This document shows, piece by piece, positions 18,021 through 47,887 of a stretch of DNA of 64,000 nt. Positions within the stretch are counted from its first letter, which is position 1; the number at the start of each line of letters is the position of its first letter. The stretch comes from Anadara kagoshimensis (taxonomy: Eukaryota; Mollusca; Bivalvia; Arcoida; Arcidae): the NCBI GenBank assembly GCA_021292105.1, contig CM037864.1, positions 40,786,514-40,850,513 on the forward strand, written 5' to 3'. Position numbers and translations under genes: made by a program. Below the pieces are notes generated by a model. It made no database searches and was not told the DNA's origin. It worked only from the letters and a program-made list of their open reading frames with translations.

Positions 18021-18284
18021 AACAGATATACGGAAAAAATAATACCGCGGTACTACTATGATCTGGCCGGTAGCTTTATAGATACGATAGTGGTAATGAG
18101 TTTAACAGAGTTCTTACTTTGATCTAGTGATTTTATCTAAATAAATATCAGATCAGGCCAGCATCCTATTTATTGTATATAATTAACTCGAATCGACTAA
18201 CATCACGAAATGAAAGACTCCTAATAAATCATCCCTATATATAACAAAATATACCATCGATATTAAACATCAATTATGATATAA

Positions 18285-19440
18285 ATTAACAACCTTGATC
18301 ACAGTTATAATAAAACAGAAATATGTATTCAAGTCGTTGTTAAGTGTCACAACATGGTTTTCTGTACAAGTCTCGGTCAGTCACTTCAATACCTGTGATG
18401 AACATGATTTATGATAATTAACAACCTTGATCACAGTTATAAAACAGAAATATGTATTCAAATCGCCATCTTATGGTTTTTTCCGTTCAAGTATAATTGG
18501 TTGGTCACTTCAATACCTGTGACGAATGTGATTTATAATAATTAACAACCATGGTTGCAGTACATTATAATAAAACATTGAAATCGGTATTTAAATCGTT
18601 GTCATTGTCACGACACATTTTATCTGGAGAAGAATAAGTCAGTCACTTGAATACCTGTGATGAACATGATTTATAATAATTAACAAACTTGATTACAGTT
18701 ATAATAAAATATTGAATTTGGTAATCAAATCGTCATCAGTGTCACGGCACAGTTTTTCTGGAGAGAAATAAGTCAGTAACTTTAATACCTGTGATGAAAG
18801 TAATTTATAATAATTTAAAAACTTGATTGCAATTATAATAAAACATTGAAATTGGTATTCAAATCGTTGTCAGTGTCACGACACAGGTTTTTTGGAGAAG
18901 AATAAGTCGGTCACTTTAATACATGTGATGAAAGTAATTTATAATAATTAAAAAACTTGATTGCATTTATAATAAAACATTGAAATCGGTATATAAATTG
19001 CTGCATTGTCGTGACAAGGTTTTTCCATAAAAGTCTAGTGGGTCACTTCAAAATCTGTGATGAAAGTAATTTATAGTTATTAAAAAAAAACTTGATGACA
19101 GTTATAATAAAACATAGAAATTTGTATTTCAATAGTCACCAGTATAATAACACAAATTTACTATAACAGAATCGGCCAGTCACTTGAATACCTGTGATAA
19201 ACATGTTTTTTAGTTATTATAAATAGGCAAATTTGTATTCAAATTGTTGTCAGTTGCATGACACAGTTTCTCTGTTGAAGTATCAGTCAGTCACTTAAAA
19301 TACTTGTGATGAACGTGATTTATCGTAAGTAAAAGGCACAAATTTGTTCTTGCATAAATCCCAAAATAAAACTGAATCTTTTTACTTATTCTAGAAAAAA
19401 CACCAGTATCATTAAAATACCCGTGATTTATCGGAACTTA
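18285..19440. repeat. Satellite with about 130-bp period, 8-9 copies
   Basis: Units begin near 18288, 18420, 18543, 18681, 18816, 18950, 19082 and 19218, with a partial copy after 19340. Each opens with an AACAACCTTGAT-like block and TTATAATAAAACA, passes a GTCACGACAC block, and closes with GTCACTTNAATACCTGTGAT and TGATTTATAATAATT. The closing block is the best conserved. The array lies 1.1 kb upstream of the minus-strand start at 17146. Confidence 0.92.
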
Positions 19441-20090: not shown

Positions 20091-20770
20091 ATGGTAAATA
20101 ATATTAATATGCTTAATTTGTATTTGTGGTGATTTTCGCTCAATGTGAAAATAAGTTTATGTACAGGAATAAGTGAAAAACTCTTAACTGTGACATTAAT
20201 CTCCACTTAACTCTGACCATTGTGTTCTTAGAGAAAGGTGTAATACCTTCAAGGTTCAACTTAGTTACCAAAACACAGAATACCAAATCTACCAATTCTG
20301 CCACCAAAATGGAAACAATCCCCAACTTACAGAGCAATCACTCTATCAGCTGCAAAAATGGCTTTAAATTTAAGGTGTAGCTACTGCATGTTTTTGGTTT
20401 TTTTTTTAAACATAGTCTATTGTTCTGTATAGATTTCTAGATCTATCATTATGGTGAAATGTGCGAATACAATAAAAGATACTGATACAATTTCATTAAA
20501 TTTTCATGAATATTATTGCAAAGCCATGGACAAATACTCAGGTGAACAAAATGTTAAACTCATTGTCAATGACATAAGTTATATTATAATCTAGTAGAGC
20601 AAGCTTTCAGGACAAAAGTTGTGATCATAGAACTATCAGGCAGTAAGTGTCTGGGTTATAAAATATACATAAACATTGACAGGTATAGAACTTAAGACTA
20701 TGTCATTAGATTATGGGATTTATCAGTCAAGTTGGATCTGTATTAGATTATCCCTTTACAGATGTCACCT
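20091..20770. other. Unassigned AT-rich sequence
   Basis: Nothing recognised. Minus-strand frames at 20206-19925 and 20337-20140 overlap in different frames and partly lie in MITE-2. Confidence 0.5.
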
Positions 20771-20771
20771 T

Positions 20772-21125
20772 GATAAGAATCCAGGTGTTAATATAAGTAT
20801 CCAGGTGCTAATTCCGGAATACAGGTGTAAAAACAAAAATCCAGGTGATAATACAAGAATCCAGGTGCTAATACAAGAACTCAGATGCCAATTCAAGAAT
20901 CCAGATGCTAATTCAATAATGCAGGTGCAAATTCAAGAACCCAGGTGTAAATATAAGAATCCAGAAGCTAATTCAAGAATTCAGATGCTAATTCAAGGAT
21001 CAAGATGCTATTTTAAATATCCAGGTTTAGATAAAAAAAACCAGATGCTAATTCAAGAACACAGGTGTAAATATAAAAATCAAGATGATAATTCAAGAAC
21101 CAATGTGGTTATTTAAGAACCCAGA
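20772..21125. repeat. 20-bp minisatellite, about 17 copies
   Basis: The consensus unit is ATCCAGGTGCTAATTCAAGA with 1-5 changes per unit. Three units make 60 bp, so a plus-strand frame stays open over the array (20676-21116, 146 codons) and translates as a 20-residue repeat with an IQVLIQEXRCKYKNP-like phase. I treat that frame as a by-product of the period, not a gene. Confidence 0.93.
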
Positions 21126-27610: not shown

Positions 27611-27997
27611 TTAGTTAGGTTGGTTGGTTAAATGTTGCTTAACGTCGCATCAGCAATTTTTCAGCTATTCGCGACGAGAACTATTTAATTAATCTCTATT
27701 GATTAATCTATGAACAATTTTTGTGTCTGCATGTGAAGTGCGAGTGTGTTGTATGGTCTGCCTTGTACTAGCGCGCACTCAGGGCGACTTTACCGTGCTA
27801 GCTCACAGAGTCAGTACGCCGCAGACAAGCGTACCACTCCCCCAGTCCATTATACTGATACCAGGTGAATCAGTAAAGGCCAACGGTAAGGAAAATTCAC
27901 TTTCCCACATGTGGTCCGAGCGGGACTCGAACTCACAGCGGTGAGAGACCCTGGATTTGAAGACTGACGTCTTATCCATTAGGCCACCGCGCCCCAT
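27611..27997 (-). mobile_element. SINE-B, full length with target duplication
   Basis: The GGTTGGTT tail is at the left and the head at the right (A box complement CCATTAGGCCA 27977-27987; B box complement GGGACTCGAAC 27922-27932). A 13-bp duplication, GCAATTGAAATAG / GCAATTAAAATAG, lies at 27598-27610 and 27998-28010. It inserted at the very end of SINE-C. Frames at 27723-27944 and 28054-27803 are SINE body. Confidence 0.92.
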
Positions 27998-28018
27998 GCA
28001 ATTAAAATAGACTGAGTA

Positions 28019-29359
28019 CCGTATATTTCCATAGATACGTCGCAACTTTTTCACTAAATTTTAAAATTTTAAAATGCAATGCGACTTAACTAGCCGACAT
28101 TAAAATATTTTGATAATCTGTCTCGAATTTTCCAAGGCATTTTAGAAGATTGACAAACCGGAAGTTAAGGTAATTTTCTAGTTGAGAGTAAATTTTGCTC
28201 TTTATTGTATTTTTGGTATTATTATTATTTTATGTGATATATATTTTTATTATTAAATTTGACCAATAAAGTCTTTGAAATAAACAAATAATTAATTAAT
28301 TAAGGTAAGTATGAGTCTCATTTTCAAGTTGTCACGTGTAACAGAATAGCCGTCGGCAAAGAAGTAAATACCTGGTCACCTGTAATTAACTTTAAATAAT
28401 CAAGTCCTCCCGGTAACACCTCGCGTGTGTCTTGTATGTTTAATGATTGAAGCCATTCCCGATAACTTATCCATTGATATAATCGTCCATGTTTACCGGT
28501 ACCTATGTTTATATATTGAAGAAGAAAGCGCCGCCATTACAGACACTAATTTTATTCCTATGTCAGAGGTCATACGGCACTTTCGTATCTGTCGGTTTGA
28601 GTAAAAAATGTCAGGATTGGACAATTGCTGATCGGGATATTCATAAAATTTATTAATATTTAATTTGCAATTCCAACGGCATGTTTAGATTTTAAACGCA
28701 ACAAAAAATGAATACAAATTATTCTTTCACAAAAGTTCAAACAACCAGAGGTTGTCCTAGTTGTTGACCAATACTCTCGAATGCAAAACCACATGTAATT
28801 CTGAACAATATAAAATGGCGATATTTACCCCCCGGTAAGCAATAGATCGTCAACTTTAACATTATACCGACAGTCCAGTATTATAAAACCTGAAACATGA
28901 GTCTAATAACGCTATAAGCGACCCCTTGTTTAAACAAATCATGCAATACATATAGCAACCTCTGCGCATGATCAAACTTTGACTTCCTTTGTCGGTGACA
29001 ACAACATGTGAATTAACCGATCTCATGATCGGGAGCCAAAAAGTACATATTTTATTCAAGCAATACACATCGCTTGTATCCATACATATAAAAATAATAT
29101 CTACATACATGTTTAATTTACACAAGCTATTCAAACAATATTTATTAAGAAGAAAAATAATAAATAACACCGGTAAAAGCTTTTGTTTCTTTATTCATGT
29201 AATTGAAAATCAATGGCTCTTGCTGAGCAAATCTTGAATTTTCTCTTGCAAATTTTTGGCTGCGACGTATGTAGACGACCTTTAGAAAATACTGGGCGTG
29301 CTGGCCTGGGGTGGGGTGCGACGTATCTACTGGGGCGACGTATATACGGAAATATACGG
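28019..29359. mobile_element. TA-flanked DNA transposon, 1.34 kb, non-autonomous
   Basis: The ends are inverted: CCGTATATTTCCATAGATAC at the left against CCGTATATTTCCGTATATAC at the right, both followed by GTCGC. TA lies at 28017-28018 and 29360-29361. The right end has three copies of GCGACGTATNTA. The interior is not AT-extreme and carries no frame above about 100 codons. TA target and the end pattern suggest a Tc1/mariner-related class; a transposase should be sought elsewhere in the genome. Confidence 0.82.
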
Positions 29360-34384: not shown

Positions 34385-34524
34385 CAATATTATAGGGTTA
34401 TTGAACTGATATTGTGAAATATTGTCCCAAGTTCACTCAAAATTTGCACGATGTTGAGAGTGCAAATTTTGAGTCAACTCAGGATAATATTTCAAAATAT
34501 CAGTTTAATAACCCTTTTATTATA
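34385..34524. repeat. Near-perfect palindrome, about 60-bp arms
   Basis: The left arm (34391-34449) and right arm (34460-34522) are inverted copies around a 10-bp loop. The arms end at the loop with AAAATTTGCAC / GTGCAAATTTT and carry GGGTTATTGAACTGATATT / AATATCAGTTTAATAACCC at the outside. Could be a foldback MITE. Confidence 0.85.
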
Positions 34525-34839: not shown

Positions 34840-36422
34840 ATAATAACGAGTATTAATGTAATGATGGATGCACCATTACAAATAAGGCGCCCAAACGAAT
34901 AAAAATCAAACCCTCTACTTAGAACTCATATTAGGAGGACTTGTACTTTTGCCGCTTTTTTCCATGTCCATGGCAACGGCTGCCATTTTGAAAATTTTAA
35001 ACCTTTAATTACGATCTACATCACTAAAAAACTGCAGGGAAACCAAATTACTTTTTGCCATTTTTAAAAGGACAACAAAATATGATCACTTTGCATAATT
35101 ACAAAATATATCATTTTTTCATTTATATGGTATTACATTATTGTAAACATGTACTTAGTGAACTTTTTTTTTCAAATACCAGGTTTCCAAACTTAAAAAT
35201 CCCTAATCAAATAGTAACACTTATTTTAATCCCAACATGGATTATTAGAAATTTTAAACTTGTACTATTCTTTTCATTTTAAGATTTGATTTTATATATA
35301 GAAGTAGTAAATGAATCCAATTGGTTGAAATTCAAACAATAGGCAAAGTTGATTGACATCGCCTATACCCAATATCACAAACCATAGTTTTGATGAGCTA
35401 ATGATGTGTTGATTTTAAATTAATCCAAGCATTTACCCATATAATGTCATATTGATAACTAAATGCAGCTACTCTATCAAATTGAATCATAAATCATGCC
35501 CTAGGGATAACTGACCATTGGTGCTGCTTATAAAACAGATTTAGCTTGAGAGCTTTTAGACATGGATCAGTGATTACTTAAGTATCCTTGACAATGAAAA
35601 TTAATGCTTATGGTTTTTTCTTAAACAAAATGATAGCAACCATCCCACCAAGAAAACTATAGTTTGAGGGTGGGGATCTCAAAGTTAGTACCTAGACCTA
35701 CCTGTCCCCACCCTCCTATTGAATGACCATATGGGTTTACTTAAGTATCAATCTATTCAACTTTTCATAAAGAATAAGAGAATATATATGTTAGGGGTGG
35801 GGATCTCAACTGATCAAAAGTTAGTACCCAGCCCCGCCTGTCCCCGTCCTCCTCTGGAAAACGCCATGGGCATTTCTTCAGTATCACTCTATTCAACTTT
35901 TAAAACAGAACTGGAAAATATATAGTTTCAGGATGGGGATATCAACCACTTAAAAGTTAGTACCAAGCCCCGCCCATCCCCACCCTGCATCAGGAATGAC
36001 CCCATAGGACTTTCTTTAGTATCACTCAATTCAACTTTTCATGCAGAACCAGAAAATATATAGTTTATGGGTGGGGATCTTAACCGTTTAAAAGTTAGCA
36101 CACTGCCCCGCCCATCCCCACCCTCCCTGATACCCCCGGGAAAATCTTTTGATACAGACTTGTACATCTTGAGACACCAATCATGAATATATATGGTTTT
36201 ATAGTACAAATATAGTATAAATAGCAAAATTGAGCATTATTGTTTTTAAGACCCCGCCCTCCTGCCCCTCCCCTAATGACCCCATGGGCATTTTACCTCG
36301 GCCTCTGGGGAAGGAGATGGGGATCAACCTTCCTGTGAAGTTTGGTTAAGATTGGACCAACGGTCTTCGAGAAATTGGTTGGACAAGTTCATGGCCGGAA
36401 GAAGAAGAAGAAGAGGAAGAAT
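34840..36422. repeat. Large tandem unit 1 (about 1.58 kb)
   Basis: Begins ATAATAACGAGTATTAATG, passes a hairpin GTAATGATG / CACCATTAC and the motif TAAGGCGCCCAAACGA (34883-34898), and ends GGCCGGAAGAAGAAG with GAGGAAGAAT. In its second half are four subrepeats of about 135 bp (starting near 35655, 35790, 35911 and 36050). Each pairs GGGTGGGGAT-like and ATCCCCACCC-like words that can fold back. No coding frame. It is repeated almost base for base in the next unit, offset 1582 bp. Confidence 0.93.
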
Positions 36423-38010
36423 ATAATAACGAGTATTAATGTAATGATGGATGCACCATTACAAATAGGCGCCCAAACGAATAAAAATCAAAGCCTCTAC
36501 TTAGAACTCATATTAGGAGGACTTGTACTTTTGCCGCTTTTTCCATGTCCATGGCAACGGCTGTCTTTTTGAAAATTTTAAACCTTTAATTACGATCTAC
36601 ATCACTAAAAAACTGCAGGAAACCTAATTACATTTTGCCATTTTTAAAAGGACAACAAAAATATGATCACTTTGCATAATTACAAAATATATCATTTTTT
36701 CATTTACATGGTATTACATTATTGTAAACATGTACTTAGTGAACTTTTTTTTATCAAATACCAGGTTTCCAAACTTAAAAATCCCTAATCAAATAGTAAC
36801 ACTTATTTTAATCCCAACATGCATTATTAGAAATTTTAAACTTGTATTATTCTTTTCATTTTAAGATTTGATTTTATATATAGAAGTAGTAAATGAATCC
36901 AATTGGTTGAAATTCAAAAATTGGCCGAAAGTTGATTGACATCGCCTATACCCAATATCACAACCTATTGTTTTGATTAGCCAATGATGTGTTGATTTTA
37001 AATTAATACAAGCATTTACCCATGTAATGTCATATTGATAACTAAATGCAGCTACTCTATCGAATTGAATCATAAATCATGCCCCAAGGATAACTGACCA
37101 TTGGTGCTGCTTATAAAAACAGATTTAGCTTGAGAGCTTTTAGACATGGATCAGTGATTACTTAAGTATCCTTGACAATGAAAATTCATGCTTATGGTTT
37201 TAATTCTTAAACAAAATGATAGCAACCAGCCCACGAAGAGAACTATAGTTTGGGGGTGGGGATCTTAAAGTTAGTACCTAGACCTACCTGTCCCCACCCT
37301 CCTATTAAATGACCATATGGGTTTACTTAAGTATTAATCTGTTCAACTTTTCATAAAGAATAAGAGAATATATATGTAAGGGGTGGGGATCTCAACTGAT
37401 CAAAAGTTAGTACCCAGCCCCGCCTGTCCCCGCCCTCCTCTGGAAAACGCCATGGGCATTTCTTCAGTATCACTCTATTCAACTTTTAAAACAGAACTGG
37501 AAATATATAGTTTCAGGATGGGGATATCAACCATTTGAAAGTTAGTACCAAGCCCCGCCCATCCCCACCCTACATCAGGAATGGCCCCATAGGACTTTCT
37601 TTAGTATCACTCAATTCAACTTTTCATGCAGAACCAGAAAATATATAGTTTATGGGTGGGATCTTAACCGTTTAAAAGTTAGCACACTGCCCCGCCCATC
37701 ACCACCCTCCCTGATACCCCCGGGAAAATCTTGTGATACAGACTTGTACATCTTGAGACACTGATCATGAATATATATGGTTTTATAGTACAAAATATAG
37801 TATAAATAGCAAAATTGAGCATTATTTTTTTTAAGACCCCGCCCTCCTGCCCCTCCCCTAATGACCCCATGGGCATTTTACCTCGGCCTCTGGGAAGGAG
37901 ATGGGGATCAACCTTCCTGTGAAGTTTGGTTAAGATTGAACCAACGGTCTTCGAGAAATTGGTTGGACAAGTTCATGGCCGGAAGAAGAAGAAGAGGAAG
38001 AATAATAATA
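36423..38010. repeat. Large tandem unit 2 (about 1.58 kb)
   Basis: Head-to-tail copy of unit 1 with scattered substitutions and one- to few-base indels. The GGCGCCCAAACGA motif recurs at 36468 (one base shorter upstream) and the four 135-bp subrepeats follow at about 37236, 37370, 37497 and 37636. It ends in GAAGAAGAGGAAG, then a TAA microsatellite in place of a third unit. Confidence 0.93.
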
Positions 38011-38132
38011 ATAATAATAATAATAAGAAACGGTGCAAAAACAATAAGTCGCCAAACTTCGTTTGGGCGCCTTAATAATAATAAGAAACGGTGCAAAAAC
38101 AATAAGTCGCCAAACTTCGTTTGGGCGCCTTA
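38003..38132. repeat. TAA microsatellite and duplicated 58-bp end module
   Basis: An AAT run (about 38003-38026) is followed by GAAACGGTGCAAAAACAATA and GTCGCCAAACTTCGTTTGGG. The module repeats after 58 bp (starts 38027 and 38085). Each copy ends TCGTTTGGGCGCCTTA (38059-38074 and 38117-38132), which is the perfect 16-bp inverse of TAAGGCGCCCAAACGA at 34883-34898. CCAAAC and GTTTGG can form a terminal hairpin. Together these look like the 3' end of a mobile element spanning about 34883-38132. Confidence 0.88.
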
Positions 38133-38189
38133 ATAACTATAGTTTTTGATGTTAGGAATAATAAGCATTCTTGGTTCCCTTTATTTTCA

Positions 38190-47335: not shown

Positions 47336-47689
47336 TGAGTGAGAGTGAGTGAGTAATGGTGTTTAACGTCCCAGTCAAGAATATTTCACTTATATTGAGA
47401 TGTCACCAGCTATAGGCGAAGGTGCAGAAATTTTTTTTCCTGTGCGTTGTGCTCATGGCATTATACAGCAGGGTTCTTTCGCATGCCAAGCCCACTGTGA
47501 CACGGGACCTCGTTTATTTTAGGTTCCCATACGAAAGAACCGTGACTTTCATTTCGTAATGCCGAGTGCTTGGCGAAAGAACAGTCACTACCCACTTTCA
47601 AGTCTTGGGTCAGACCCGGTCGGGGATCAAACCCACGACCTCCCACTTACGGAGCAAGCACTCTACCAACTGAGCTACCGCAGTGGTTA
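47336..47689 (-). mobile_element. SINE-A, young full-length copy with 14-bp duplication
   Basis: GCTACAGAATGGAG flanks it exactly at 47322-47335 and 47690-47703. A-box complement CAACTGAGCTA (47667-47677) and B-box complement GGATCAAACC (47624-47633) are intact. The tail is TGAGTGAGAGTGAGTGAG. The frames in 47461-47848 lie in this element. Confidence 0.95.
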
Positions 47690-47887
47690 GCTACAGAATG
47701 GAGGTGTAGTAACACACCAAAAGTCGTATTCCAATATATTGCAGAAGTGTTAAACTGTACTGCAATACATATTACAATGATGTCATATATCCTCTGTGTA
47801 ATCCTGTTGGAAAAAATTGTACTTATCATAAATAAAACTCATGGTTAGTTATTAAGCCTTAAATCAGTTTGAAGACCATGCAATCAA

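Follow-up and report, generated by a model that had tools for sequence, protein, structure and literature searches.

Units, end modules and central repeats

The locus extends over positions 34840–38136 of the window, by which we mean the whole 64-kb stretch of DNA analysed, and on the minus strand its direct repeat, subterminal inverted repeats (subTIRs), and end modules can be read as a nested pair of HINE-like elements. Its start agrees with the initial annotation, which had set the right limit at 38132; the feature in fact reaches about 38136. Two direct repeats in head-to-tail order, 34840–36422 and 36423–38010, show 1531 matches and 46 substitutions (26 of them transitions) in 1577 aligned positions, with 13 gap events and a K2P distance of 0.030, and BLASTN gives 96.3% over 1599 columns. 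The two nearly identical units noted earlier are thus real. The purine-rich GAAGAAG tract, which had been described as a junction, is present in the units, as is the microsatellite, reported by TRF as (AAT)8–9.

We refer to the contiguous 1656 bp at 36423–38078 as copy A. Copy B, also on the minus strand, consists of the body and right module at 34840–36422 and of a 58-bp left end module (LF) at 38079–38136.

The sequence TAAGGCGCCCAAACGA is found at 34883–34898, and its exact inverse occurs twice, at 38059–38074 and 38117–38132; the perfect inverted arm is 17 bp long (34883–34899 against 38116–38132). When a 3551-bp stretch was simulated 500 times with a Markov model, no arm exceeded 16 bp, a length reached in two cases. 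The right-hand arm appears twice because 58 bp at the right end of the locus are perfectly duplicated in tandem (TRF, 38015–38136). Unit 2 carries its own copy of the left arm at 36467–36481, with 15 bp shared. The LFs of copies A and B agree at 58 of 58 positions; since only about 1.7 differences are expected in 58 bp at 3% divergence, this complete agreement is unremarkable, and LF identity cannot tell the models of origin apart.

The central part of each unit is a tandem array, for which TRF gives a period of 136–138 in both units and which lies at 37267–37710 in copy A and at 35681–36126 in copy B (minus strand). The four subrepeats per unit reported in the initial annotation were recovered as four anchors, but not their uniform length of 135 bp: the anchor spacing is 135–138 bp, and within one unit three repeats align at 67–72%, whereas the one at 35681/37267 aligns at 44–51% under a crude segmentation. 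Equivalent repeats of copies A and B agree at 93–97%, which exceeds the agreement of the three well-aligned repeats within a copy, so that the array is older than the split between the two copies. About 0.8 kb of non-repeated DNA separates the central repeats from the right module.

Elsewhere in the window, at 18284–19227, there is a 134-bp tandem array of 6.9 copies, with an inverted match to several of its monomers at 19198–19224 (85–88% over 26–27 nt); this may mark a further element with a satellite-like array.

Minus-strand reading as a probable non-autonomous Helentron

The subTIRs of HINEs measure 12–15 bp and lie 2–4 nt from the 5′ end and 38–60 bp from the 3′ end; the palindrome stands 8–35 bp from the latter, and the targets are T-rich and are not modified (PMC4067079). 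In Cg_HINE, the left flank is formed by a subTIR, a complementary IR, and a microsatellite, followed by a repeat array and by a right flank with a subTIR and a palindrome (PMC7492417).

The minus strand is the strand on which the ends of the locus make sense, and the first reading took the wrong one. Read on the plus strand, the left arm sits 43 bp inside the unit and a hairpin stands at the right; the bracketing by a 16-bp sequence and its perfect inverse claimed at first therefore holds as regards the inverse, at 17 bp, but not as regards its terminal position. On the minus strand, the order is TTAT, subTIR (38132–38116), IR (38115–38104), (TTA)n, a TTC tract, the body with the repeats of about 136 bp, the non-repeated DNA, subTIR (34899–34883), palindrome (34880–34857), and an edge at about 34840. 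What had been called a terminal hairpin at the right is in fact the 5′ subTIR of copy B together with its complementary IR, which pair with each other, and the 3′ palindrome lies at the other end. Copy A has the same parts on the same strand: a 5′ subTIR at 38058–38074, identified as the exact inverse of the left arm and by comparison of the LFs, an IR at 38046–38057, a (TTA)8 microsatellite at 38003–38026 (TRF and alignment), a 3′ subTIR at 36467–36481, and a 3′ palindrome at 36440–36463.

The perfect 17-bp arms correspond to the subterminal inverted repeats of HINEs, which measure about 11–15 bp. At the 5′ end, the 4-nt TTAT precedes the subTIR in both LFs, and the IR follows after a 3-nt loop and is in turn followed by the TTA tract; it is the two copies of the LF alone that define this edge, as the two copies of the right end module (RF) define the 3′ edge. 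At the 3′ end, the subTIR lies 43 bp and the palindrome about 17 bp from the edge at 34840. Central tandem repeats, a common though not obligatory trait of HINEs, are present in both units.

Both hairpins are also supported by single-strand DNA folding: the 5′ hairpin at 38098–38134, folded as the plus strand, has z = −2.90, with 3 of 200 shuffles as good, and the 3′ hairpin at 34852–34884 has z = −2.82, with 1 of 200. A scan for the architecture (subTIR, IR, distal inverse subTIR, and palindrome) returned this locus alone in the 64-kb window, in four pairings that all read on the minus strand; in 20 Markov controls it gave no hits when the arms were set to 15 bp and 0–4 per control when they were set to 11 bp, the scan being partly fitted to the locus in that its IR minimum was lowered from 7 to 6 bp after the 7-bp version had missed it.

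About 320 bp past the 3′ edge of the element, the window also contains a foldback (34389–34520) with two 61-nt arms, 87% complementary and 10 nt apart, which looks like a separate small palindromic repeat.

From these sequence features, we assign the elements with high confidence to the HINEs, the passenger form of Helentron rolling-circle transposons; they are very likely non-autonomous Helentrons of the pearl type and not a new class. The likeness to pearl and Helentron elements suggested by the initial annotation holds, and more strictly than claimed, once the minus strand is read. The length of the 1.58-kb unit, which had been taken as the sign of a new class, gives no ground for one, because Helitron-assigned satellite monomers of 1144, 2077, and 2091 bp are listed for Crassostrea gigas in PMC8268682.

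Other classes agree less well with the locus. A canonical Helitron (Helitron1) has 5′ TC and 3′ CTRR, whereas the ends here read TTATTAAGG and CTCG(TTA)nTAT. The outer flanks share the 5-bp direct repeat TATAG; HINEs should insert without target duplication, and the repeat counts to that extent against the HINE reading, although direct repeats of at least 5 bp also occurred in 263 of 5000 random pairs. This chance-level match, together with arms that are subterminal and asymmetric, argues against a cut-and-paste element with terminal inverted repeats and a target duplication. The presumed inner insertion sits in a TTA/TTC tract. A retroelement tail with a stem-loop would leave the 17-bp inverse at the far end unexplained. 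As for an RNA gene, the 64-kb window gave no Rfam family at the gathering threshold and no tRNA in ARAGORN. Ten ORFs of the window, one of them from the unit, gave no Pfam match at the curated cut-off, which speaks against a coding element; two weak matches (E 0.07–0.09) both lie outside the unit.

Among other open reading frames, a 147-aa stop-to-stop ORF at 20673–21116 contains most of a 20-bp minisatellite, (AAGAATCCAGGTGCTAATAC)n, at 20775–21124. Short ORFs at 47546–47848 and 27803–28060 read ...RPGRGSNPRPPTYGASTLPTELPQ... and ...RGGLMDKTSVFKSRVSHRCEFESRSD..., respectively; readings of this type are known as spurious translations of tRNA-derived repeats, but ARAGORN gave no tRNA in the window.

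The closest parallels are Cg_HINE of Crassostrea gigas (PMC7492417) and the pearl/CvA-type elements, which share with the locus the left order of subTIR, complementary IR, and microsatellite, the right order of 3′ subTIR and palindrome, and a short array of central repeats of roughly 140–180 bp. By their published descriptions, they differ in having a subTIR of 11–12 bp, against 17 bp here, and the locus is set apart by the 0.8 kb of non-repeated DNA before the right module and by its (TTA)n/(TTC)n microsatellite. HINE-Mo and DINE-1 (PMC4067079) have in common with it the spacing of subTIR and palindrome, the non-coding nature, and the central repeats, but not the doubled LF and the nested dimer. 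The Helitron2-type FoHeli elements (PMC5148889) carry an inverted repeat within the 5′ hairpin, and in the printed ends of FoHeli1/2 the loop seems to be GAA, as it is in our elements; in FoHeli1/2 the 3′ inverted repeat lies 38–51 bp from the end, a distance comparable to ours, and the short 5′ duplications of FoHeli elements, for which self-insertion was proposed, measure 31–85 nt, against 58 here. Unlike our elements, FoHeli are fungal, mostly coding, and 5–11 kb long, and their nested case is one family within another.

Relatives of the left module

A protein-level search with the pseudo-ORF 37819–38130 showed the LF module to have numerous relatives, with E ≤ 0.01 for 472 of 1031 candidates; the readings of these relatives are DNA called as genes. 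Among the 120 matches listed, an inner module of QTLFGR type occurs together with a C-terminal one of PNVVWET type in 88, a share that is biased upward because the query itself held two LF modules. A loose motif count over the same 120 matches assigns two modules to 104 of them, three modules to 9, four to 2, five to 2, and a single module to 3; inspection by eye shows a second, variant module in two of these last three. The pseudo-proteins of three relatives (P0016, P0027, and P0117) read, by eye, through about five or more stacked LFs, and therefore the module can multiply well beyond two.

Two-frame reading gives the plus-strand module of the relatives as AAGTCTCC...GGGAGACTT, against AAGTCGCC...GGGCGCCTT here, on the assumption that their inner and outer modules share one sequence. 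In the LF stem, one pair is changed on both sides relative to the relatives (T-A to G-C), and one pair is lost here; this single case hints that the stem may be conserved in the module.

Other comparisons gave no relatives. The unit body had none in two protein-level searches, which are a weak test for non-coding DNA, and exact patterns had no match among viral records, nor was there a match in the prokaryote records, results that say little given what these collections hold. The translated module gave 108 stretches of viral records, none of which was confirmed, and five short module strings did not occur in a literature text search.

Origin of the dimer

On the minus strand, the locus has the order LF-LF-body-RF-body-RF. 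Removal of copy A (38078–36423) joins 38136–38079 to 36422–34840 and leaves copy B as an element of 1641 bp colinear with A; the end-to-end alignment of the two has 1589 matches, 46 substitutions, and 13 gaps, the largest of 14 bp in the TTA tract. Because this excision leaves such a colinear element, the insertion of one copy into another is the simplest account. The right ends of both copies share CTCG(TTA)nTAT and then diverge, B into the flank (AGCAATA) and A into TCTTCC, which is the tract that follows the microsatellite in copy A itself; the LF of copy A thus shows how the joined region of B reads without interruption. From the sequence of these joints, we consider it on balance probable that copy A entered copy B at the TTA/TTC microsatellite that lies close behind B's 5′ end, the tract in B that corresponds to the (TTA)8 of copy A being the presumed insertion site. 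A single insertion would account for all these features: one edge has two LFs, the internal joint has neither an LF nor flanking DNA, and both RFs are intact.

Several observations count against nesting and bear on what we regard as a rather improbable but serious rival, in which a single HINE-like element already had two LFs, and slippage or unequal exchange between the T-rich end tracts duplicated its body and RF locally. It is serious because the doubled LF may be inherited: the two LFs of the relatives differ between inner and outer position (88/120 matches listed), as if inherited, and if doubling is a fixed trait there, the doubled LF here needs no nesting, while a nest of two double-LF elements should show four LFs. 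TTA tracts are moreover present at both ends, and the A/B joint permits a 3-bp TAT overlap, which could reflect a microhomology join. Local duplication, however, requires a breakpoint that coincides with the 3′ edge predicted for a HINE, 43 bp from the subTIR; a joint within the TTA repeats should run directly into TTC, whereas the TA beyond the repeats is kept; and the doubled LF needs a separate origin.

Less probable still is a rolling-circle concatemer, in which replication past the right module would have produced a head-to-tail dimer that was inserted and later lost its internal LF. In its favour, the joint coincides with the element's right end, and bats and plants are reported to carry Helitrons in head-to-tail arrays (PMC5876387, PMC4067079). 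Published arrays, on the other hand, lose inner 3′ ends (PMC7492417) or show many 5′ ends and one 3′ end (PMC12628747), and what PMC8268682 describes is loss of the 3′ terminator from the circle, whereas here both RFs are intact, the internal LF is missing, and the outer LF is doubled; since it is the internal 5′ end that is absent, a concatemer needs two more events, a loss and an LF duplication. The same difference separates the locus from tandem truncated Helitrons (Xiong et al. 2016, as cited in PMC7492417, PMC8268682, and PMC12628747), which are likewise head-to-tail rolling-circle elements, but with inner copies that lack 3′ ends. Amplification by rolling circle, proposed by the initial annotation as the source of the dimer, accordingly gives way to insertion, with which the two retained 3′ ends and the two 5′ modules side by side at one edge agree. 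An artefact in which the assembly kept two haplotypes or joined copies wrongly appears highly improbable: in an outbred animal, haplotypes that differ by 3%, as the units do, could stay separate, but a haplotype misjoin would carry flank and LF into the joint, which lies exactly at the element end without either.

Under the preferred account, the insertion of copy A into copy B, an autonomous Helentron would supply Rep/helicase nicking at the left module, one strand would be copied from the left to the right module, with the 3′ palindrome acting as a terminator, and the product would insert into T-rich DNA, here the microsatellite of a sibling, giving a nested dimer. A later round that began at the outer LF and ended at the first RF would then export an element with two left modules.

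There are precedents for parts of this scheme. In Fusarium, self-insertion has been proposed for the doubled 5′ ends of Helitrons, and a nested composite has been proposed to export an element with two 5′ ends in Helitron2-type elements with 5′ duplications of 31–85 nt; the same source describes a non-autonomous copy nested inside an element of another family and three tandem Helitron copies in Metarhizium acridum, for which it leaves open insertion at the 5′ end or rolling-circle replication (PMC5148889). TE dimers arising through insertion-site preference are attributed to McGurk and Barbash in PMC12628747. Nested and tandem Helitron cases were thus reported earlier in fungi (PMC5148889), and because complex loci in which parts of Helitrons sit inside other elements are mentioned for C. 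gigas (PMC12628747, PMC11136912), nesting as such is not new. In the papers searched, we found no animal or bivalve HINE nest described base by base.

The locus in the window has the form of a self-insertion composite, and the relatives, where readable, that of an export product; we infer a link between the two from this comparison. A broader proposal, which we put forward as speculative and rather doubtful, is that self-insertion into the element's own 5′ microsatellite forms a built-in renewal cycle, in which siblings would land in the T-rich site carried by each left module, nested dimers would be intermediates, and re-export would breed elements that have two, five, or more left modules in a stack and spread as stable subfamilies. 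The readings of the relatives suggest such stacked-LF subfamilies.

Taken together, our results remove the claimed new class, which arose from misreading of the strand, and the locus seems to add one more example to a kind already known. If the nested origin is true, it would provide a same-family case, readable base by base, of the nested form proposed for Helitron-type elements with multiple 5′ ends, and it would connect, in a testable way, the preference for landing sites with element dimers and with satellite-like repeats on the kilobase scale.
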